A stretch of 64,000 nucleotides of DNA from Candidatus Rubrimentiphilum sp. Lineage in GTDB: Bacteria > Vulcanimicrobiota > Vulcanimicrobiia > Vulcanimicrobiales > Vulcanimicrobiaceae. The notes under the pieces were generated by a model. It was not told the origin of the DNA and did not search any database. It saw only the letters and a program-made list of their open reading frames with translations. The stretch lies in contig DASTDE010000001.1 of the NCBI GenBank assembly GCA_035710515.1, positions 124,001-188,000 on the forward strand. The letters run 5' to 3'. The position numbers and the translations under genes are program-made. Positions within the stretch are counted from its first letter, which is position 1, and each line of letters begins with the position of its first letter. Shown piece by piece: positions 29,900-38,459 of this stretch.

Positions 29900-30925
29900 C
29901 TAGTGAATGCGCCGGCCGCGCGCCGGTTGATTGGGCGCCGGGCGCCGGATGAAGCCCGTCATCGGAGCCCACTCCGCCGGCAGCCGGCGTTGCGCGCGCA
30001 GCGCGCCATTATACAAGTACACGGCACCGTGCGACGAGCTCGCCGTAACGACCGAGCCGTTGCCGCCGAGCTGCGCGTCGGTCTGTCCGGCGCGAACCGC
30101 TCCGCCGCCGAAAGTCGAATAGATCCGGCCGACCGAGCTGTGCGCGCCGATCTGCACGTTACCCGCGCCGACGCCAATCCCGACGTTGCCGTTGGTGCTC
30201 TCAAAACGGGCCAAGCCCGGCTGGAAGCCGCCGTTGTCGTACACGATCGTGCCGTTGTAGCTTGAAACGTCTATCTGCCGCGACATGACGTTCTCGAACA
30301 AAATGTTACCGATGGCCGTGCGCGCACGAAAGCGATCGAAAGACGAACCGTCCGTCATGATCTGCCCGCGCGCGACTTGCACGAAGCCGGTGCCGCCGAC
30401 GTTATGCAGCCGAGCTCCGCCGTTGTGAACCAGCAGCGCGAACGCGCCGTTGCGGTAATCTTGCACGTCGATGAGACCGCGCTGCACGTTACCCAGCAAA
30501 AGCGCAGTACCGGCCGGCAACATCACGAGCACGTTTGCATCCACAGCTTGAATGAAGATGCCGGCATGCGGAGCTGCGGTCAACGCAGGCAGTGCGAACT
30601 CTTCCGGCGGCAACACGATCGTGCCATCCGGCGTAAGAACTGTCGTCGCGAAGATCGGGATAGGGCGGGTCAGCGCCTGCGCGACGGCTTCCGGCCGGAA
30701 ACTGCGCGCACTCACAGGTTGCGGCGAGCTCACCTGGACGTCGCTTCTGTTCCAGATCCGCACCGTCAGCGTTCCGCTGCGCATCATTACGCGCACGACC
30801 GGCGAGTCGCCGGCCGGCAAGACAATAGGCGCAGTCTGAGCACGCACCCACGACGGTTGCGCACTCAGTATGGCACATATGAAAATGAGGAGTCCGGCCG
30901 CCCGTCCCCTCACCCGGTTCGTCAC
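29900..30925 (-). CDS. Secreted beta-solenoid / DUF4097-like protein
   Basis: 341 aa from the GTG at 30925 (an ATG at 30988 inside the kinase gene is a second option). Signal peptide RAAGLLIFICAILSAQPSWVRA, then a repetitive beta domain with short rungs (GLIDVQDYRNGAFALLVHNGG, ARLHNVGG, GQIMTDGSS, NILFENVMSRQIDVSSYNGTIVYDNG, FESTNGNVGIGVGAGNVQIGAHSSVG). The alternating pattern is that of DUF4097 / head-GIN putative adhesins. Last gene of the ECF sigma/two-component operon; likely an envelope protein whose level that system controls. The C-terminus is basic and Pro-rich. Confidence 0.65.
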   Translation of the reverse strand: MTNRVRGRAAGLLIFICAILSAQPSWVRAQTAPIVLPAGDSPVVRVMMRSGTLTVRIWNRSDVQVSSPQPVSARSFRPEAVAQALTRPIPIFATTVLTPDGTIVLPPEEFALPALTAAPHAGIFIQAVDANVLVMLPAGTALLLGNVQRGLIDVQDYRNGAFALLVHNGGARLHNVGGTGFVQVARGQIMTDGSSFDRFRARTAIGNILFENVMSRQIDVSSYNGTIVYDNGGFQPGLARFESTNGNVGIGVGAGNVQIGAHSSVGRIYSTFGGGAVRAGQTDAQLGGNGSVVTASSSHGAVYLYNGALRAQRRLPAEWAPMTGFIRRPAPNQPARGRRIH

Positions 30926-30966
30926 CTTACTATTGTACGTGCCGCCGGCTCCCGTACATGAGAATA

Positions 30967-32373
30967 CTATGAGATGCGCGGGAACCAAGCACGAAAGAGG
31001 GCGCCGCCCGTCTTCGATCGGAGCGCCTCGACGCTTCCGTCGTGCACGCGTGTTATCGATCGGACGATTGCTAGGCCCAACCCCGTGCCGGGAACGGCCC
31101 GGTTGCGCGACTTGTCGGTGCGATAAAACCGATCGAAAACGAAGGCCGCGTCGGCCGGATCGATGCCGGGGCCGGTATCCTCAACTTCGATACTAGCTTT
31201 ACCATCTTGGGCGCGTACGCGAACCGTGACGCTGCCGGCGTCGGTGAATTTGATGGCGTTGTCGATCAAATTACTGAAAAGCTGCCGAATGAGTGAGGGG
31301 TCGCCCAGAATTTGCGGCTGTTCGTTGCCGCCGTCGAAAGTCAAGCGCAGGCCCTTGCCATGCGCGCGCGGCTGCGCGGCGGCAACCGCCTCCGCGCCGA
31401 TCACGCCGAGCGGAACAGTTTCTTTAGGAATCGCTTCACCGGAGTCGGCTTTCGCCAGCGTTAGCATGCCCGCGACCATGCCGGCGAGCGAGGCGCTCTC
31501 CGTGGCGATCGTCTCCAAGCTCTCCCGGCGGACCTGCTCGTCGCGGTCGCCCCAACGCGCCAGCAGCTGTGCGTTGGCGTTAATGGACGTAAGCGGCGTC
31601 TTCAATTCATGCGAAGCGTCGGAGATAAACTGGCGCTCGCGCGCAAACGATTCTTCCAGACGCGCGAGCAAGTCGTCAAAGGTGGCGGCCAGTTTACCGA
31701 CCTCGTCGTTGCGGTTCTTCCAGCGCAGCCGGCGGTTGAGGCGATCCGATCCGATTTCGCGCATCGCCAGCGCGAGTTGATTGATTGGATTGGTCGCTTG
31801 TGAAGCCAGCACCAGCGACAGTCCGCCGACGGCCAGAACCGACGCGATGAGAATTCCGACGATCGCCTGCCGCGTCTCGTTGAAAGCTCGATAGAGTTGG
31901 TCGAGCGGCTCACCGACGCGAACGATCAGCGCGTTCCGTCCGCTGCTCATCAGCTCGTTTTGAACCAAGAATGGTGTGCCGTGCAAGTCGGCGTCTTGAA
32001 CCGCCGATGGTTTGGCGGCGGTGAGCTTCGGCGCCGGCGGAAACTCCGTAGTTCCCATGTTGAAGCTCTTGGCCACGTCGTGTCCATTCGTATCCTCAAT
32101 TTCCAAATACGTTCCCGCGGCCGCCCAGCGTTCGAGATTGTCCGTGCTCTCAAGGGTAAGCAGCGCATCGCCGCTCGTATCCTGGATCGAAAACTGGTTG
32201 GGAGGCGGCAGCGCGACGCGCTTGATGTCCTGCATCGTTAACGCCAGATGCCCTTGCGCCTGGTCGTAGAGAATCTGCTCGAAACGTAAGGTGACGATCA
32301 ACCCCAGCGCGAGGATGGCGGCGATCAGCAGCAGGGCATACCAGGCGGCGATTCGCCACCGTAGGGAAGTCAC
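30967..32373 (-). CDS. Sensor histidine kinase with HAMP domain
   Basis: 468 aa. TM1 residues ~10-30, periplasmic sensor ~31-170, TM2 ~172-192, HAMP (ATNPINQLALAMREIG), HisKA with phospho-acceptor His in SDASHELKTPLTSINA, and HATPase (NLIDNAIKFT; EDTGPGIDP; GTGLGLAIVRSI). The orthodox EnvZ/BaeS-type layout. The GTG at 32373 shares its G with the TAG stop of the response regulator (TAGTG), so the pair is coupled. Signal unknown; the neighbours suggest envelope state. Confidence 0.93.
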   Translation of the reverse strand: MTSLRWRIAAWYALLLIAAILALGLIVTLRFEQILYDQAQGHLALTMQDIKRVALPPPNQFSIQDTSGDALLTLESTDNLERWAAAGTYLEIEDTNGHDVAKSFNMGTTEFPPAPKLTAAKPSAVQDADLHGTPFLVQNELMSSGRNALIVRVGEPLDQLYRAFNETRQAIVGILIASVLAVGGLSLVLASQATNPINQLALAMREIGSDRLNRRLRWKNRNDEVGKLAATFDDLLARLEESFARERQFISDASHELKTPLTSINANAQLLARWGDRDEQVRRESLETIATESASLAGMVAGMLTLAKADSGEAIPKETVPLGVIGAEAVAAAQPRAHGKGLRLTFDGGNEQPQILGDPSLIRQLFSNLIDNAIKFTDAGSVTVRVRAQDGKASIEVEDTGPGIDPADAAFVFDRFYRTDKSRNRAVPGTGLGLAIVRSITRVHDGSVEALRSKTGGALFRAWFPRIS

Positions 32374-33044
32374 TAATCCTTGATGGTGTAACCGACTCCG
32401 CGCACGGTCGTGATCAGTTTGTCGTCGAAGCCGTCGTCGATCTTTCCGCGCAGATAGCGGATGTAGACGTCGATCAGGTTGGAGTCGCCCAGAAAGTCGC
32501 TTCCCCAAACGCCGTTGAAGAGTTCGTCGCGCGAATGGACCTTGTTGCGATGCAGCAGCAGGTATTCCAAGAGCGCGTATTCTTTGGCGGTCAAGTTGAC
32601 CGGCTTGCCGTTCCGCGTGACTTCGTGGCGGTCGCGATCCATCGAGAGGTCGCGATAGACGATGACATTGCTGGCTGGTTCTTTATCGCGCAGGCGGGCA
32701 CGAACGCGCGCCAGCAGTTCCTCGGTTGAAAAAGGCTTGGTCATGTAATCGTCCGCGCCCATGTCCAGGCCGGCGACGCGTTCGGGAACGCGATCCTTCG
32801 CCGTCAGCATGATGATTGGCACGCGGCTTTTGGCGCGCAGCCGGCGGCAAACTTCCAAGCCGTCCATTTTCGGCAGCATGAGATCCAAAACGACGAGGTC
32901 AGGTTCTTTGAGTGCGCGCTCTAAGCCCGAGAGACCATCGCGAGCGCTTTCGACTTCGTAACCTTCGTGTTCGAGTTCGAGCTGAAGGACGCGGCTGATC
33001 GCCGCGTCATCCTCGATGACCAGGATGCGAAAGCGCCGGTTAAC
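32373..33044 (-). CDS. OmpR-family response regulator (start codon not canonical)
   Basis: The receiver domain is complete in frame: RILVIEDDAAISRVLQLE, the phospho-acceptor Asp in VVLDLMLPKMDG, the Lys of MLTAKDRV, and the winged-helix domain ending VRGVGYTIKD. Yet no ATG, GTG or TTG occurs in this frame between the upstream stop at 33084 and a TTG at 32888 that lies directly before the phospho-acceptor. Plausible starts are GTT at 33044 (overlapping the upstream stop, giving NRRFRILVIEDD), ATC at 33026 or CTG at 33023. It is in the +1 frame relative to the upstream gene, so a frameshift or assembly error is also possible. Partner of the downstream kinase. Confidence 0.8.
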   Translation of the reverse strand, partial: VNRRFRILVIEDDAAISRVLQLELEHEGYEVESARDGLSGLERALKEPDLVVLDLMLPKMDGLEVCRRLRAKSRVPIIMLTAKDRVPERVAGLDMGADDYMTKPFSTEELLARVRARLRDKEPASNVIVYRDLSMDRDRHEVTRNGKPVNLTAKEYALLEYLLLHRNKVHSRDELFNGVWGSDFLGDSNLIDVYIRYLRGKIDDGFDDKLITTVRGVGYTIKD

Positions 33045-33408
33045 GGCGCACCGGTCCTCGACGCGCGGGTGCGACAGCCGGACTCAGCTGGGAAATCCAC
33101 ATCGCGGCCGCACCTCCCAGCGCGATCCAAAGCAACGTTGCCGGTTGTGAAACGACCGCCAGAATTGCGCCGCCAACGACGTCGAGCGTGGAAACGACCG
33201 GAGCCGGACCGCCGCGCAAGATCAGCACGAGCAGCCAAGCGATCATGGCGACGCAGCCGCCCATGAGCCAGCCTTCCCACGGCTTGACCGCCAGGGTATG
33301 GCGGTAGATTGTACGATCCAGGATCGACGCCCGCAGGTTGGCGGGAGCCTCCTCGAGCGGGAGGTTGAAAAGTGCGCGGTCCAGATCGGCGTCGCTATAG
33401 TGTTTCAT
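33040..33408 (-). CDS. Small membrane protein, probable anti-sigma factor
   Basis: 122 aa. Cytoplasmic N-terminal helix segment (MKHYSDADLDRALFNLPLEEAPANLRASILDRT) resembling the short sigma-binding part of anti-sigma factors, then two membrane helices (about residues 45-65 and 75-107). No zinc (HxxxCxxC) motif. It overlaps the ECF sigma gene by 4 bp (ATGA), the classic arrangement for a sigma/anti-sigma pair. The last bases overlap the likely beginning of the response regulator. Confidence 0.65.
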   Translation of the reverse strand: MKHYSDADLDRALFNLPLEEAPANLRASILDRTIYRHTLAVKPWEGWLMGGCVAMIAWLLVLILRGGPAPVVSTLDVVGGAILAVVSQPATLLWIALGGAAAMWISQLSPAVAPARRGPVRR

Positions 33409-34004
33409 TCCGGTACTCCCGTTGCGGCTTGATTCAGCATTCGCCGCAACTGTTCTTTTGCGCGGAACAGGTGGGTCTTCACCGTTCCGATCGGTATCTC
33501 CAGCACTTGAGCGATCTCGTCGTACTGGCTGCCCTGCAGGTGGTAGAGCGTTATCACGGTGCGATATTTCTCCGGGAGCTGCGCGATCGCGGCTCGCAGC
33601 CGCCGGGCTTCGTCCCCGGCGATGGCTTGCTGCTCCGGCCCGGCCCCAGGGTCGGCCCGATCCGGAAGCTCCTCGTTCGAGTAACGTTTGCGGCGGTTCA
33701 ATCGGTCGCAGCAGGCGTGGTAGGCGATCGAGAAGATCCAGGTCGAGAATTTGGCGCCCGGCCGGAAGGTGCGCAGGCTGCGGTAGGCCTTGAAAAACGC
33801 CTCCTGCGCGACGTCGCGGGCCTCCTCGGAGTCCCGCAGCGTCCTGTAGGCCAAGTGGTAGACCGCTCGGTCGTATCGCTCGACGAGCGTGCCGAAAGCC
33901 TCGCCCCGGCCCGCCAGCGCTTGCGTTACGAGCGTCTGGTCATCGACGGTGGTCGCGAGGTCGATAGCAGGGGCCTCCAGTACGGCTGCAGCCACGCTCG
34001 TCAT
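33405..34004 (-). CDS. RNA polymerase ECF sigma factor
   Basis: 199 aa. Sigma-2: FGTLVERYDRAVYHLAYRTLRDSEEARDVAQEAFFKAYRSL and FSTWIFSIAYHACCDRLNRRKR. Sigma-4: RRLRAAIAQLPEKYRTVITLYHLQGSQYDEIAQVLEIPIGTVKTHLFRAKEQLRRML. Start ATG at 34004 (MTSVAAAVLEAP); the longer frame crosses into the divergent promoter region. Heads an operon running sigma, membrane protein, response regulator, kinase, solenoid protein. Divergent from a DUF4097-like gene 71 bp away, a likely regulatory target. Confidence 0.93.
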   Translation of the reverse strand: MTSVAAAVLEAPAIDLATTVDDQTLVTQALAGRGEAFGTLVERYDRAVYHLAYRTLRDSEEARDVAQEAFFKAYRSLRTFRPGAKFSTWIFSIAYHACCDRLNRRKRYSNEELPDRADPGAGPEQQAIAGDEARRLRAAIAQLPEKYRTVITLYHLQGSQYDEIAQVLEIPIGTVKTHLFRAKEQLRRMLNQAATGVPE

Positions 34005-34075
34005 ACACGCGCGCGCGAAGCATTGTTTCGGCCGCCCTGAAACACTCCCCCGGCCCGGCCCGTACCTGGGGAAGA

Positions 34076-34930
34076 ATGCGCTACACACGAACCGTCCTCA
34101 TCGCCGTCCTCATCGCCGCCGAGGTTTTTATCGCGAGCGTCATCGTGGTCTCGGCCGGCGGCCTCAAGACGTTTTCGGACGCCGGGAACGCCCGCGATTT
34201 CAACTACACTCCCTATTCGCTGCCGGCGGTTGCGGTTGGTTCGCGTCCGCATGTGGTGATCGACGACCCGGATTCGCGCGTCGTCGTCACGCCGTCCACC
34301 GACGGCCAGGTCCACATCACCGACGCTACCAGCATCGGCGGCTGGGGCTGGGGTTCGCGTCCGCAACATCTGCAAGTGCGCAAGACTGCGGACGGAGTTG
34401 TCATCGCACGGCCCACGATAGCAAATCGCGTCATCATTTTCGGCTTTGAATCGAGCCGCACAGAAGTCGCTGTGCCGGCGGATGCAGTGCTTGAGATCAC
34501 GCATGCCGGCGGCGCCGACGTGAGCGATCTCACGGGCACGATCAACGTCCATTCCGACGACGGACACATTGCGGCTACGAATGTCAAGAGCGTCGACGTC
34601 GCACTGACCACGGACGACGGACACATTACTCTGGACAACGTCGACGCGGACAAGCTCGCGGTCTCCACGCAGGACGGTTCTATCCGGGCTTCGTCGCTGC
34701 GCGTTCGCCAGGGCAGCGCGCATACCGGTGACGGTTCGGTCACGCTGGCATTTGCGGACGCGGGAGATCTTACGCTGCAGGCGCGCACCGGCGACGGCAG
34801 CATCAGAATTAACGGAGCGCGGCAAGGCGACTCGCCGCTGCGCGACTACAAACTTGGAAACGGCGGCGGTTCGCTGGACGTCTCAACGGAAGACGGCAGC
34901 ATCCGCGTTTACACGAACGGAGCGAATTAA
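34076..34930 (+). CDS. DUF4097-like putative adhesin
   Basis: 284 aa. One N-terminal membrane anchor/signal (RTVLIAVLIAAEVFIASVIVVSA), then from residue ~60 a run of short beta rungs built on D-D/G-H motifs: INVHSDDGHIAATNVKS, VDVALTTDDGHITLDNVDA, LAVSTQDGSIRASSL, SAHTGDGSVTLAF, LQARTGDGSIRINGA, LDVSTEDGSIRVYTN. This T-x-D-G-S-I repeat is the DUF4097 / adhesin solenoid pattern. Divergent from the ECF sigma gene; immediately followed by a DUF6249 protein. Confidence 0.82.
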   Translation: MRYTRTVLIAVLIAAEVFIASVIVVSAGGLKTFSDAGNARDFNYTPYSLPAVAVGSRPHVVIDDPDSRVVVTPSTDGQVHITDATSIGGWGWGSRPQHLQVRKTADGVVIARPTIANRVIIFGFESSRTEVAVPADAVLEITHAGGADVSDLTGTINVHSDDGHIAATNVKSVDVALTTDDGHITLDNVDADKLAVSTQDGSIRASSLRVRQGSAHTGDGSVTLAFADAGDLTLQARTGDGSIRINGARQGDSPLRDYKLGNGGGSLDVSTEDGSIRVYTNGAN

Positions 34931-35479
34931 ATGCAGTTCTCTGAATCTTTTGTCGCGGTCATCGCGATTCTCGTCGTCTTCGGAATGCCGCTCGCATTCG
35001 CAATGTCGCACCGTTGGTGGTCGCATCAAGAACGGCTGGAAATGATTAAGCGCGGAATGCCGCCGCCGCTCGATCCGCGCGAGGCGCGGCGAGCCGAACG
35101 TGCCGGCTATAATTACGCGAGTTACGCTTCCAACGACCCGAACTCGTGCTACTATCCCGATCGCATGTTGCGCAAAGGCGTGACGGTGGCAATGGTCGGT
35201 TTGGCGCTGTTGATCGGTCTGTCGTTTATCAATCCAGGACGTCCGGGACCGTGGCTCCTGGGCGGATTGATTCCGCTGTTCGTGGGCCTTGCGCAGATTA
35301 TTTTGGCGTTGATGTCGGGCGCAAACTTCGGCGGGTGGACGCTTCAGGGGCCGCAGCCGGTGCAGCGTGGCACCATGCCGGGACAGACGCCGGCGCCTCC
35401 GCCCGGACCCTACGCTTGGCGGCCAGGACAAACGACGGAGCTCGAACCGCCCGTCCGTCCGCCTGACATAAGGCAGTAG
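34931..35479 (+). CDS. DUF6249-like membrane protein
   Basis: 182 aa. First membrane helix at residues ~8-25, then the cytoplasmic block HRWWSHQERLEMIKRGMPPPLD, which is the typical DUF6249 motif in operons with ECF sigma factors. A pair of C-terminal membrane helices (about 85-102, 108-130) follows, then a Pro/Gly-rich tail. It starts directly after the stop of the DUF4097-like gene (TAAATG), so both are one transcript ending at the terminator at 35488. Confidence 0.75.
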   Translation: MQFSESFVAVIAILVVFGMPLAFAMSHRWWSHQERLEMIKRGMPPPLDPREARRAERAGYNYASYASNDPNSCYYPDRMLRKGVTVAMVGLALLIGLSFINPGRPGPWLLGGLIPLFVGLAQIILALMSGANFGGWTLQGPQPVQRGTMPGQTPAPPPGPYAWRPGQTTELEPPVRPPDIRQ

Positions 35480-35487
35480 ATAAAGGA

Positions 35488-35516
35488 AGAACCGCCGGCA
35501 AGCCGGCGGTTCTTTT
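35488..35516 (+). terminator. Strong intrinsic terminator
   Basis: A 12-bp stem (AGAACCGCCGGC/GCCGGCGGTTCT, with a tetraloop if the last pair opens) followed by TTT. It ends the DUF4097-DUF6249 transcript and, being symmetrical, also the convergent 46-aa peptide gene. Confidence 0.85.
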
Positions 35517-35534: not shown

Positions 35535-35675
35535 TTACTTACAGGATACCAGGGCGATTGCCCATCCAGCCGCAGTTCTCGTCCGGACGAGGTAACCGTC
35601 AGACGTCCGGTCGTAAACCTGGTAGCCCGCTCTTAGCGCGTCGGCTAGCGATTTGAAGACCATAAGACCTGCCAT
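35535..35675 (-). CDS. Small basic protein, 46 aa
   Basis: The ATG at 35675 has an ideal ribosome-binding site (AAAGGAGGG, about 8 nt spacing). The peptide is MAGLMVFKSLADALRAGYQV then YDRT, a TxDGYLVRTRTA beta hairpin-like part and WAIALVSCK. It carries its own promoter (35703-35731) and is bounded by the strong terminator on the other side, so it is a complete, monocistronic small gene. The FKSLADALRAGYQVYDRTSDGYLVR layout looks like a compact helix-beta fold. No family recognised. Confidence 0.72.
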   Translation of the reverse strand: MAGLMVFKSLADALRAGYQVYDRTSDGYLVRTRTAAGWAIALVSCK

Positions 35676-35731: not shown

Positions 35732-35813
35732 GTGGGTTCAGTCAAACGTCGCAATTTTGATTAAATATTCTGTAACGGGAGTATGTCCGGGCGGTTGCGA
35801 GAATGGTGCCGCG

Positions 35814-36626
35814 ATGCCCAACGGGCCATCGGTACGTGATGTCCGCGTGCTCGATCGCACAGAACTTGCGCCCGGCGTAGTCCTCCTTGGTTTTTACGCT
35901 CCGGAGCTCGTTGCCGTGACTCGGCCGGGCCAGTTCGTCATGGCAATACCGCCAAGCGGCGAACGCGCCGCGACGGCGCTCGCCATCTATGAGGCGCAAG
36001 GAGAGCGCGCGAGTTTGCTGTTTTTCATCTGCGGCGCGCGGACGCGTGAATTGGCCGAATTACGAACGGGCGACACGCTTTCAATCACCGGTCCTTTGGG
36101 CAACGGTTTCGACGTGAATGGCGCGCGCAACGTTGCAATTGTAGCCGGCGGCGTGGGCATCGCATCGGTATTGCTTCCTGCGCAAATGCTAATCGAACAA
36201 GGCGCGCGCGTGCGGTTGTTTTACGGCGCGCGCAGCGAAAACTTCTTGGTCGATCGCGAGCGTTTCGAACGCGCCGGTTGCGAGCTCTGCTGCGCGACCG
36301 ACGACGGATCGTTCGGTCACGCCGGATTCATCACCGAACTGCTCGCCGCTGCGGAAGACAAACCGGATCTCATCATCGCCTGCGGTCCGTCGCCCATGCT
36401 GCGCGCCACTGCGTTTGTTGCATCGGAGCTCGGCGTGCGTGCGCAGCTTTCGCTGGAAGAGACATTCGCGTGCGGAGTCGGCGGCTGTTGGGGCTGCGTC
36501 GTTCCATTGGATCGCAAGAGTTCACAAGCGCCGAGATTTCCCGCGCCGGCGAACGGCGGCGACTTCGTTTACGCGCGCGTCTGCAAGGAAGGCCCAGTCT
36601 TCTGGGCCCACGAGCTGAGATGGTAG
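35814..36626 (+). CDS. pyrK: Dihydroorotate dehydrogenase electron-transfer subunit
   Basis: 270 aa, FAD/NAD and [2Fe-2S] subunit of type 1B DHODH. FAD site RPGQFVMAIPP, NAD-binding AIVAGGVGIASVLLPAQML, and the iron-sulfur cysteines in TFACGVGGCWGCVVP plus CKEGPVF. The start at the ATG of 35814 is chosen; a TTG 19 codons upstream is possible. Two to four bp further on lies a structured leader before pyrD. Feeds electrons from DHODH (PyrD) to NAD in pyrimidine synthesis. Confidence 0.93.
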   Translation: MPNGPSVRDVRVLDRTELAPGVVLLGFYAPELVAVTRPGQFVMAIPPSGERAATALAIYEAQGERASLLFFICGARTRELAELRTGDTLSITGPLGNGFDVNGARNVAIVAGGVGIASVLLPAQMLIEQGARVRLFYGARSENFLVDRERFERAGCELCCATDDGSFGHAGFITELLAAAEDKPDLIIACGPSPMLRATAFVASELGVRAQLSLEETFACGVGGCWGCVVPLDRKSSQAPRFPAPANGGDFVYARVCKEGPVFWAHELRW

Positions 36627-36709
36627 CGCTCGCCCTTTACCGACGCTCGCTTTTTGCATGGTTAATCGCTCGGCCGGCAAAGGGCTCGCAAGACATTAAC
36701 GATATCGAG
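36627..36709 (+). promoter_or_regulatory. Leader region between pyrK and pyrD, first imperfect hairpin
   Basis: GCTCGCCCTTTACCGAC (from about 36628) can pair with GCCGGCAAAGGGCTCGC (from about 36673) at 13 of 17 positions. The loop holds GGTTAATCG (36660-36668), an exact complement of CGATTAACC in the loop of the second hairpin, allowing an alternative pairing. Confidence 0.45.
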
Positions 36710-36713
36710 ACGT

Positions 36714-36792
36714 GGCTTCCGTACGCGGCACATGCCGCCCGAACGATTAACCTGCGAACAAGTGAGGGTGGCATGTGCCGCGTCGGGAAGCC
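36714..36792 (+). promoter_or_regulatory. Long hairpin enclosing the pyrD ribosome-binding site
   Basis: The arm at 36714-36740 (GGCTTCC ... GCCGCCC) pairs with 36766-36792 (GGGTGGC ... GGAAGCC): 24 Watson-Crick pairs, one G-U, two mismatches, and a 25-nt loop (36741-36765). The right arm contains GGGAAG (36785-36790), the only candidate Shine-Dalgarno site for the pyrD ATG at 36796, so the folded form would block translation. Confidence 0.7.
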
Positions 36793-36795
36793 GCT

Positions 36796-37758
36796 ATGAG
36801 CCGCGGCTCCGTCGATCTATCGGTAACGATTGGCTCATTGCAGCTGCCGTATCCGACGCTCATGGCGAGCGGGTGCTATGGATCGGGCGAGGAGTTCGAA
36901 CCGTTTGTGGACCTCGCGCAGATCGGCGCGGTCGTTTTGAAGAGCGTTACGCGGGCGCCGCGGCTGGGCAACCCGATGCCGCGGCTGGTGGCGACTCCGG
37001 CCGGCATGCTCAATGCGATCGGACTACAGAATCCGGGCATCGACTGGTATCTCGAGCACGAGGTGGCCAAGTTCGCGAAGCGGCCGTCCGCGGTGATCGG
37101 CAGCGTGGCGGCGTTTTCGGTGGACGATTACGCCTACGTCACCGAACGGCTGGCGGCGCGCGACGAAATCGCGGCGATCGAACTCAACATTTCGTGTCCC
37201 AACGTCGCTTCGGAGGGCGAAACATTCGCCTGCGATCCGGATCTGACGGCCAAGGTCGTACGCGCGGTGCGAGGCGTTACCGGGAAGACGCTGATCGTCA
37301 AACTCTCGCCAAACGTCACCGACCTGGCGGCCATCGCCGCCTCGGCGGAGGCCGCGGGCGCCGACGCGTTGGCGGTCATCAACACCTTGCGTGGAATGTC
37401 CATCGACGTGAACGCTTGGAAGCCGCGTCTCGGAAACGTTACCGGGGGGCTCTCGGGGCCGGCTATCCGGCCCGTCGCCGTGCTGGCAGTCTACGAGGCC
37501 GCGCGCGCGGTTGCGATTCCGATTATCGGGCAGGGCGGAATCGAAACCATCAGCGACGCGCTCGAATTCTTTCTCGCGGGCGCGAGCGCGATCGCAATCG
37601 GTACGGCGAACTTCACCGATCCGCGCATTCCGGTCCGGATCGTGGACGAGCTGCGAGACTATCTGACTGCTCGCGGGCACAGTTCGTTGAGCGAGATCGT
37701 CGGTAAGGCGAACGTCGGGTTTGCGACGCCGTTTCAATATGAAGGCGGCGAAGGATAA
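36796..37758 (+). CDS. pyrD: Dihydroorotate dehydrogenase, type 1B catalytic subunit
   Basis: 320 aa, flavin-dependent oxidation of dihydroorotate to orotate. Signatures: NPMPRLVATPAGMLNAIGLQNPG, the catalytic-base Cys in IELNISCPNVASEG, KTLIVKLSPNVTDLA, the INTLRGMSIDVNAWKPRLGNVTGGLSGPAI block, and IGQGGIETISDALEFFLAGASAIAIGTANF. Type 1B because of the Cys base and the adjoining PyrK. Start ATG 36796 (MSRGSVDLSVTIG); an ATG seven codons upstream falls inside the hairpin arm. The stop overlaps the pyrF start (TAATG). Confidence 0.95.
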   Translation: MSRGSVDLSVTIGSLQLPYPTLMASGCYGSGEEFEPFVDLAQIGAVVLKSVTRAPRLGNPMPRLVATPAGMLNAIGLQNPGIDWYLEHEVAKFAKRPSAVIGSVAAFSVDDYAYVTERLAARDEIAAIELNISCPNVASEGETFACDPDLTAKVVRAVRGVTGKTLIVKLSPNVTDLAAIAASAEAAGADALAVINTLRGMSIDVNAWKPRLGNVTGGLSGPAIRPVAVLAVYEAARAVAIPIIGQGGIETISDALEFFLAGASAIAIGTANFTDPRIPVRIVDELRDYLTARGHSSLSEIVGKANVGFATPFQYEGGEG

Positions 37759-38459
37759 TGGCGCAACTCGTGGTGGCCTTGGACGTCCCGACCGCCGGCC
37801 ACGCCGAGCGCCTTATAGACGAACTGTACGAACTCGACGTGCTTTTCAAAGTCGGACTCGAGGCGCTCTACGGATACGGCGACCGCATCTTCGCGCACAT
37901 GGCGGCGCGCGACGTCCGGCACTTCATCGATGCAAAACTGCACGACATACCGCGCACGGCCGGTGCCGCCGCGCGGCAGCTGGTGCGCCCGGGCACGCAC
38001 ATCATCAACGTGCACGCGATCGGTGGAAACGACATGATGCGCGCGGTCGTCGACGCAGCGGGTGAACGCGCGGACGAACTCGGCATAACTGAGCCGCACG
38101 TTTTTGCCGTCACCATGCTCACGAGCATCGGCGCGGAAGATCTCAACGAATTGGGGTTTCATGGCGGAATAGGCGAGAACACCATGCGCCTCTCCGCACT
38201 CGCACGTGACGCGGGATGCAGCGGCGTGGTCTGCAGCGCGCACGAAGTGCGCGACCTCAAACGCTATTTCGGCGAGGATTTTCTGACGCTCACTCCCGGA
38301 ATTCGTCCCGGCGGCGCCGTGCACGGCGATCAGAAGCGCGTGACCACGCCGGCCGAAGCGGTCGCCGCTGGCGCCGATTATCTGGTGGTTGGCCGGCCGA
38401 TTACCGAAGCGTCCGAGCCGCTCGAGGCCGCCAAAGCCATCCTCGAAGAGATGCGTTGA
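37758..38459 (+). CDS. pyrF: Orotidine 5'-phosphate decarboxylase
   Basis: 233 aa, converts OMP to UMP. The N-terminal strand VVALDVPT, then KVGLEALYGYG, the catalytic DAKLHDIPRTAGAAARQL (the DxKxxDI motif with Lys and two Asp), TPGIRPGG and DQKRVTTPAEAVAAGADYLVVGRPIT (phosphate site Arg in GRPIT). Overlaps pyrD by 1 bp and pyrE by 4 bp, placing the last enzymes of UMP synthesis in one translational unit. Confidence 0.96.
   Translation: MAQLVVALDVPTAGHAERLIDELYELDVLFKVGLEALYGYGDRIFAHMAARDVRHFIDAKLHDIPRTAGAAARQLVRPGTHIINVHAIGGNDMMRAVVDAAGERADELGITEPHVFAVTMLTSIGAEDLNELGFHGGIGENTMRLSALARDAGCSGVVCSAHEVRDLKRYFGEDFLTLTPGIRPGGAVHGDQKRVTTPAEAVAAGADYLVVGRPITEASEPLEAAKAILEEMR

Follow-up and report, generated by a model that had tools for sequence, protein, structure and literature searches.

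A conserved ECF sigma factor module of Candidatus Eremiobacterota with a two-component system and Toastrack proteins: a putative sigma-W-type circuit

The window considered here is a stretch of 64,000 nucleotides (nt) from Candidatus Rubrimentiphilum sp., a soil bacterium studied little so far (GenBank assembly GCA_035710515.1, contig DASTDE010000001.1, positions 124,001 to 188,000 of the forward strand), and the system in question is a gene module headed by an extracytoplasmic function (ECF) sigma factor at window positions 29900 to 35479. The module is probably an autoregulated ECF system of the sigma-W type for envelope stress, occurring for the most part in a single family of Candidatus Eremiobacterota, and its sigma factor would also drive a two-component system. 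The underlying observation is real and conserved, with ordinary parts in a new combination. The sigma-W-like naming is chosen chiefly because the promoter motif and two kinds of candidate target are alike. Going by protein identity, among other signs, the window belongs to the phylum Candidatus Eremiobacterota (WPS-2), and the terms family, genus and own genome refer throughout to those of the window. The matches listed from the open-licence literature make no use of the name 'Eremiobacterota', which is a statement about these matches and not about print in general; one listed paper (PMC6624303) contains ECF sigma, two-component and DUF4097 together.

The genes and promoters of the module are as follows:

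33405..33995, minus strand: ECF sigma factor (Pfam Sigma70_r2 and Sigma70_r4_2; GTG 33995 is the preferred start, ATG 34004 is possible)
33040..33408, minus strand: 122-amino-acid, two-transmembrane (2-TM) protein, probable minimal anti-sigma factor by position and AlphaFold2 shape, without a Pfam match
32373..33044, minus strand: OmpR/PhoB-type response regulator (PF00072 and PF00486), without an ATG, GTG or TTG start
30967..32373, minus strand: sensor histidine kinase (HAMP, HisKA, HATPase; start GTG 32373, read from the sequence)
29900..30925, minus strand: probably exported right-handed beta-solenoid, a divergent Toastrack (DUF4097) protein (start GTG 30925 from the sequence; export signal by eye)
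34004..34029, minus strand: putative sigma-operon promoter (GAAAC as -35; -10 read as TGTA with a 17-nt spacer or as CGTG with a 15-nt spacer)
34039..34064, plus strand: putative divergent promoter GAAACACTCCCCCGGCCCGGCCCGTA of the DUF4097-DUF6249 pair (ECF-type motif)
34076..34930, plus strand: DUF4097 (Toastrack) protein (PF13349, E 2.4e-15, 57 bits vs a cut-off of 22.9; N-terminal hydrophobic stretch by eye)
34931..35479, plus strand: DUF6249 membrane protein (PF19762, E 3.2e-12, 46.8 bits)

The preliminary description, made from the sequence alone, had assigned the sigma factor, a membrane protein, the regulator, the kinase and one solenoid to the minus strand, with DUF4097 and DUF6249 divergent from them, and this gene set is present as stated, with Pfam support. 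The one- and two-component control of which it spoke is loose wording, as the ECF/anti-sigma type of control is not a one-component system. The divergent gap of 71 bp (34005-34075) is correct if the sigma gene starts at ATG 34004, but GTG 33995 is the likelier start.

Divergent promoters and candidate targets

Sigma orthologs were taken at a threshold of E<=1e-40 across 99 family genomes (149 genomes of the phylum were searched likewise). The resulting set comprises 90 loci, namely 88 retrieved stretches, the window and locus L027, with two genomes contributing two loci each. The promoter count was made on 89 of them, L124, which starts inside the sigma gene, being left out. The motif GAAAC-N13-19-CGT is found on the sigma strand in 86 loci and on the opposite strand in 82 (2.15 and 2.95 loci, respectively, are expected from dinucleotide shuffles). 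The shared ECF motif that the preliminary description proposed to look for in the divergent gap is thus found there, facing both ways in 81 of the 89 loci. The spacer is 17 nt at 64 sites of the sigma strand, 16 nt at 19 and 13-15 nt at 5; on the opposite strand it is 16 nt at 66 sites, 17 nt at 16, and 13 and 18 nt at one site each. At the 16-17 nt spacing, positions not demanded by the search are also fixed, with an A after CGT and a C or T before GAAAC (83/83 and 82/82 sites). The resulting divergent motif, (C/T)GAAAC-N16/17-CGTA, equals the published consensus of Bacillus subtilis sigma-W (TGAAACN16,17CGTA, as given in PMC2375139). We infer that the GAAAC/CGTA motifs are promoters of the module sigma. 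In 55 of 84 loci the distance from CGTN to the sigma start is 8 nt, which makes GTG 33995 the likelier start and suggests that the mRNA may be leaderless.

The two -35 boxes are separated by 0-48 nt (79 loci), with zero nt between them in 3. The GAAAC/CGTA pairs could be kept for another reason, for example as the inverted repeat of a dimeric regulator, and in some loci the gap does form a palindrome (TGTTTCGAAACA in L042, L048 and L121). The inverted halves vary in separation over the range given above, yet the distance from GAAAC to CGT is 16-17 nt in nearly all sites; the distance to the sigma start is narrow, and the site upstream of the Yip1 genes, described next, is single and directional. 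This alternative is very unlikely.

In the case of further targets, GAAACA-N16-CGTA occurs at 32 sites over the seven genus genomes (16 for the reversed control), and 20 of the 32 are accounted for by the promoters of sigma (6 sites) and DUF4097 (7 sites) and by 7 sites that precede a Yip1-like gene by about 90 nt. The last of these is found in 7/7 genus genomes and in 11 of 30 loci overall, with 0.5 expected from mononucleotide shuffles; 30 of the 76 Yip1 matches were taken into this count. The corresponding feature is:

L344:1-7623: Yip1-TolC-HlyD-MacB-MacB-ABC operon, preceded at 92 nt by an ECF-type site and with an HtrA-like protease behind it

The Yip1 operon of the own genome codes for a Yip1-like protein (Yip1 score 25.9 bits, slightly below the cut-off of 28.6), TolC, an HlyD-type fusion protein, two MacB/FtsX permeases and an ATPase. 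An HtrA-like protease is encoded 96 nt behind it, and its distance from Yip1 is similar in 3/3 further genomes compared.

Seven further GAAACA-N15/16-CGTA sites of the own genome were inspected. Those of L156, L157 and L159 (N15 after GAAACA) and of L158 were rejected as targets, being inside long open reading frames (ORFs); the Rce1-like protease of L161, which has another of these sites, has orthologs in just 3/7 genus genomes at E<=1e-15.

Gene order and its retention

The sigma factor has a match in 88 of the 99 family genomes, the own one counted. In G027 the match is merely a 49% paralog (locus L093), so 87 look orthologous. In the sister family, 2 of the 4 genomes listed carry a sigma match (56-57% identity), and no further genome among the 149 of the phylum matches at the same threshold. 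No clear sigma ortholog is present in 12 family genomes; 8 of these are also without the regulator at E<=1e-60 and 4 have it wholly or partly, assembly gaps being possible. Two copies of the locus are present in genome G071 (L097 and L098, sigma 88-89% identical to that of the window); contamination of this assembly is 7%, so the two copies may reflect a strain mixture.

Gene order was counted by profile searches on the 62 of 90 loci that extend beyond sigma by at least 2.5 kb on its upstream side and 4.5 kb on its downstream side (the other 28 are too short on one side; the paralog locus L093 was scored among the misses). The 2-TM protein, regulator, kinase and solenoid are all at the expected places in 59 of the 62, and the order seen in the window is thus kept family-wide. 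Loss of this order in relatives would have refuted the preliminary interpretation, which therefore withstands the sequence part of that check, the shared motif being present as well. DUF6249 is present in 61/62 loci and a DUF4097 profile match in 40/62. In the 21 loci from which DUF4097 is missing, DUF6249 itself faces the promoter, which makes DUF6249 the steady divergent partner. The earlier notion of paired solenoids is therefore right in that both proteins are of the Toastrack/DUF4097 type, but the pairing fails in these 21 loci, where DUF6249 is kept.

Within the operon, the sigma gene overlaps the 2-TM gene via ATGA (a 4-nt overlap in 76 of the 84 loci with both starts called), and in the window the GTG start of the kinase shares 1 nt with the TAG stop of the regulator. 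These genes could also be separate co-directional units, with sigma, the 2-TM protein and DUF6249 as the ancestral part and the regulator, kinase and solenoid merely adjacent, under their own promoter and with an unrelated function. Such a division would agree with L092 and L101, which are without regulator and kinase, and with the sister family, where L334 has sigma, the 2-TM protein and DUF6249 but neither regulator nor kinase, and L333 has the regulator ~2.7 kb downstream, beyond ORFs of the opposite strand; a TACAAT seen by eye before the solenoid of the window also speaks for it. Short gaps or overlaps in many loci and the joint retention in 59/62 argue against separate units, as does a sigma-70 scan, itself a weak one, that gave 1 site in the region vs 1.3 expected, and we consider this arrangement unlikely. 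Because of the two sister-family loci, comparison of the sequences suggests that sigma, the 2-TM protein and DUF6249 form an older core, which the two-component unit would have joined in the ancestor of the family. In both the window and L124 the TACAAT (window 30932-30937, minus strand), seen by eye, closely precedes the start of the solenoid gene, and it is possibly a separate leaderless promoter of the solenoid in the genus.

Relatives of the regulator at L273-L332, nearly all from other phyla, gave no profile match to the anti-sigma protein or DUF6249. A sigma match was found there only in L282, the solenoid in L273 and L287, and DUF4097 in L273, L277 and L287 (L287 may be Eremiobacterota). 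The DUF4097-profile match of L273 (Clostridium thailandense) has an E of 8e-27 and shares a 14.7-kb stretch with a 55% relative of the regulator. In plasmid searches all ECF matches were below 60% identity, and DUF6249 was without match.

The operon had been described as one translational chain. This wording hid an oddity of the regulator, the frame of which holds no ATG, GTG or TTG from the upstream stop to the receiver core. These codons are lacking before the core in 7/7 genus loci (6 genomes); in other genera a standard start is found within 30 codons of the core in 66 of 67 assessable loci (L043 is the exception, and 11 were not assessable by the core pattern). A conserved GTT (33044-33042) overlaps the stop codon of the upstream 2-TM gene (GTTAA), and the junction GTGCGCCGTTAAY (window 33039-33083, minus strand) is identical in the seven genus loci, in which the last three codons of the 2-TM gene are invariant, including third positions, while each of the 13 preceding codons varies. 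Within the genus the regulator is 91-93% identical to that of the window and is thus under selection. Tentatively, and at somewhat less than even chances, the genus regulator may be made only by ribosomes just finishing the 2-TM protein, either from a GUU start that overlaps the stop or by a +1 frameshift at CGU-UAA, which would yield a membrane-tethered fusion of anti-sigma and regulator. If true, either route would couple the two-component output directly to the sigma circuit through translation.

The surroundings of the module contain one further feature on the DUF6249 side:

35487..35514, plus strand: 12-pair hairpin followed by a short T run, candidate terminator after DUF6249 (by eye)

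The terminator scan gave this hairpin on the minus strand only, and its 5 sites in total compare with 6.1 in shuffles. Between DUF6249 and PyrK lies a 46-amino-acid ORF (MAGLMVFKSLADALRAGYQVYDRTSDGYLVRTRTAAGWAIALVSCK, 35535-35675, minus strand), with GGAGGG upstream by eye. Strongly conserved, it is matched in 80 of the 90 loci (tblastn) and in 110 of the 149 genomes of the phylum, is identical in the seven genus copies there, and is without a Pfam or NCBIfam match. A second copy of this protein, 62% identical, is found in the own genome at G000:C2:78154-78288 (minus strand). PyrK-PyrD-PyrF (35757-38459, plus strand) adjoin the module in most family loci (PyrK in 50/62), with an apparently unrelated function.

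Proteins of the module

The sigma factor scores below the cut-offs of the SigW models, with 138.4 bits vs 209 for NF007223 and 123 vs 243.1 for TIGR02948, and by score it is no SigW equivalog. Among six of the seven ECF matches of the own genome it nevertheless has the highest SigW score (138.4 vs at most 110.8 bits), although the others were scanned as matched stretches, which lowers their scores.

The AlphaFold2 model of the 2-TM protein (mean predicted local distance difference test, pLDDT, 80.3; predicted template modelling score, pTM, 0.38) has two short helices (residues 6-14 and 23-33) followed by helices 43-66, 68-86 and 89-108, and the consensus of its N-terminal region is LDRALFALPLEEPPADLRASIL. 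The protein belongs to no Pfam family, no anti-sigma family is among the Pfam matches of 32 members, and a sequence search of the PDB with its profile gave weak matches of unrelated names only. The zinc motif Hx3Cx2C is absent by eye, zinc-free class I domains being outside the scope of this test. The modelled shape fits a class II-like anti-sigma factor, and the 2-TM protein is a probable anti-sigma factor.

Both solenoids are Toastrack/DUF4097 proteins. In the case of the one at 29900..30925, PF13349 is matched at E<=0.01 by 12 of 27 aligned orthologs, although not by the window protein itself, and hhalign of its profile against the divergent DUF4097 proteins gives a probability of 98.5% (E 1.5e-15). 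The model of this solenoid (pLDDT 89.5, pTM 0.85) superposes best on 3lyc (Z 14.3, 189 residues, root-mean-square deviation 2.9 Å), and further on 3pet, 3jx8, 3ljy, 4opw (Z 13.4) and 4qrk (Z 11.3), with pectate lyases and other beta-helices lower; in Foldseek 4qrk alone passes an E of 0.001. The structures 4qrk and 4opw are named as Toastrack in PMC11237479. Among the module proteins no Pfam match to PspA, PspC or LiaI-LiaF-TM was found.

Proposed circuit and comparison with known systems

In the proposed circuit, the two short helices of the 2-TM protein would tether sigma to the membrane, and envelope damage would set sigma free. The freed sigma would transcribe its own operon, raising sigma and anti-sigma and supplying the exported Toastrack solenoid along with regulator and kinase, and it would also transcribe the divergent Toastrack/DUF6249 pair and the Yip1 exporter operon. 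As sigma would transcribe the regulator/kinase pair, the two-component system would be an output of sigma, adding a second, phosphorylation-based layer of sensing, and the Toastrack proteins may act as envelope scaffolds or sensors. The interpretation given in the preliminary description is thereby partly supported; the integrated sensing of the cell surface at which it hinted, with kinase and sigma answering to one signal, is conjectural.

Several observations weigh against this interpretation. The -10 of the window's own sigma promoter at the family spacing is TGTA, one base off the motif (it is CGTA in six other genus copies among the matches listed). GAAAC-N15-17-CGTA shows no excess across the own genome, with 63 sites vs 70 for the reversed control, and the bare motif is thus too noisy to define a regulon; the stricter GAAACA-N15/16-CGTA gives 8 sites there vs 4 in the control. 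Outside the genus the Yip1 site is rare (4 of 23 family loci). A site at the metallopeptidase of L160 (DUF4953/DUF5117), rejected as a target, is found only in the own genome, with any motif in 3 of 30 ortholog loci, taken from the matches listed (0.55 expected). The Yip1 site is also present in G072, a genus genome of 95% completeness in which there is no match to sigma at E<=1e-40, to the regulator at E<=1e-60 or to the neighbouring small gene, the locus being lost or unassembled there. The best NCBIfam model of the sigma factor is PRK05602 (148.2 bits), not SigW, no SigW cut-off being reached, and the anti-sigma role of the 2-TM protein rests on position and shape.

If the proposed circuit is correct, a largely uncultured phylum gains a testable regulon of three target operons, together with their promoter motif and a probable anti-sigma factor. 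The logic of sigma-W (promoter, Toastrack operon and Yip1-type exporter) would then recur far from Firmicutes, ECF control would extend to Toastrack proteins on either side of a single promoter region, and an ECF sigma factor would command a two-component system, with the SigE-CseBC arrangement reversed.

For the comparison with B. subtilis sigma-W/RsiW, the Toastrack protein CAB15517.1 is presumed to be YvlB, and YknW is taken to be a Yip1 protein. The core sigma-W regulon includes sigW-rsiW, yvlABCD and yknWXYZ (PMC3498285); CAB15517.1 adjoins a PspC gene (PMC11237479), and YknWXYZ is a four-component transporter according to a title cited in PMC6818787. As far as these sources describe it, the likeness lies in the promoter consensus, in the sigma operon apparently being part of its own regulon and in putative targets of the yvlABCD and yknWXYZ types. 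Unlike that system, the module has genes for a two-component system and for a second protein of the Toastrack type in its sigma operon, its probable anti-sigma factor is a short 2-TM protein without a zinc motif, and the targets seen are three operons vs 89 genes.

A different direction of control would follow from likeness to SigE-CseABC of Streptomyces, in which case the two-component system would sense stress and switch on the sigma gene, and the 2-TM protein would be a CseA-like modulator rather than an anti-sigma factor. Two-component control of an ECF sigma factor is reportedly known elsewhere, in PorXY-SigP, which counts for this direction, as does the lack of a Pfam match of the 2-TM protein. 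In S. coelicolor sigE-cseA-cseB-cseC, as described in PMC6767563, the ECF sigma gene is likewise followed by genes for an envelope protein, a response regulator and a kinase. According to the same description, the kinase there drives sigma, the sigE gene is not transcribed by the sigma factor that it encodes and there is no anti-sigma factor, and its authors state that the system is apparently absent outside Streptomyces. The module sigma, by contrast, appears to drive itself and the kinase, since its gene carries, in 86/89 loci, the ECF motif that also precedes the divergent neighbour, and where the -35 boxes abut (3/79 loci) a regulator site could not fit between them. The regulator scores 189 bits with the CseB model vs a cut-off of 350; CseA is a lipoprotein, which the 2-TM protein by its sequence, judged by eye, is not, and the passages cited for SigE do not mention Toastrack genes. 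Control in the Streptomyces direction is therefore improbable here, and the putative promoters suggest a flow from sigma to kinase, the reverse of SigE-CseABC.

The module also resembles LiaFSR and other operons of Toastrack proteins with two-component systems, in that Toastrack proteins adjoin a regulator/kinase pair. In PMC11237479 Toastrack is argued to be intracellular, and contexts linking it to a sigma factor are mentioned as well. In the present case the operon is led by an ECF sigma factor, and the Toastrack proteins seem, by eye, to be exported or anchored at their N-termini. In respect to the class II anti-sigma factor CnrY, which has two short helices before the membrane (PMC7406223), the 2-TM protein is likewise modelled with two short pre-membrane helices, and it differs from CnrY in having more than one membrane helix and in that the PDB sequence search gave no match to it.

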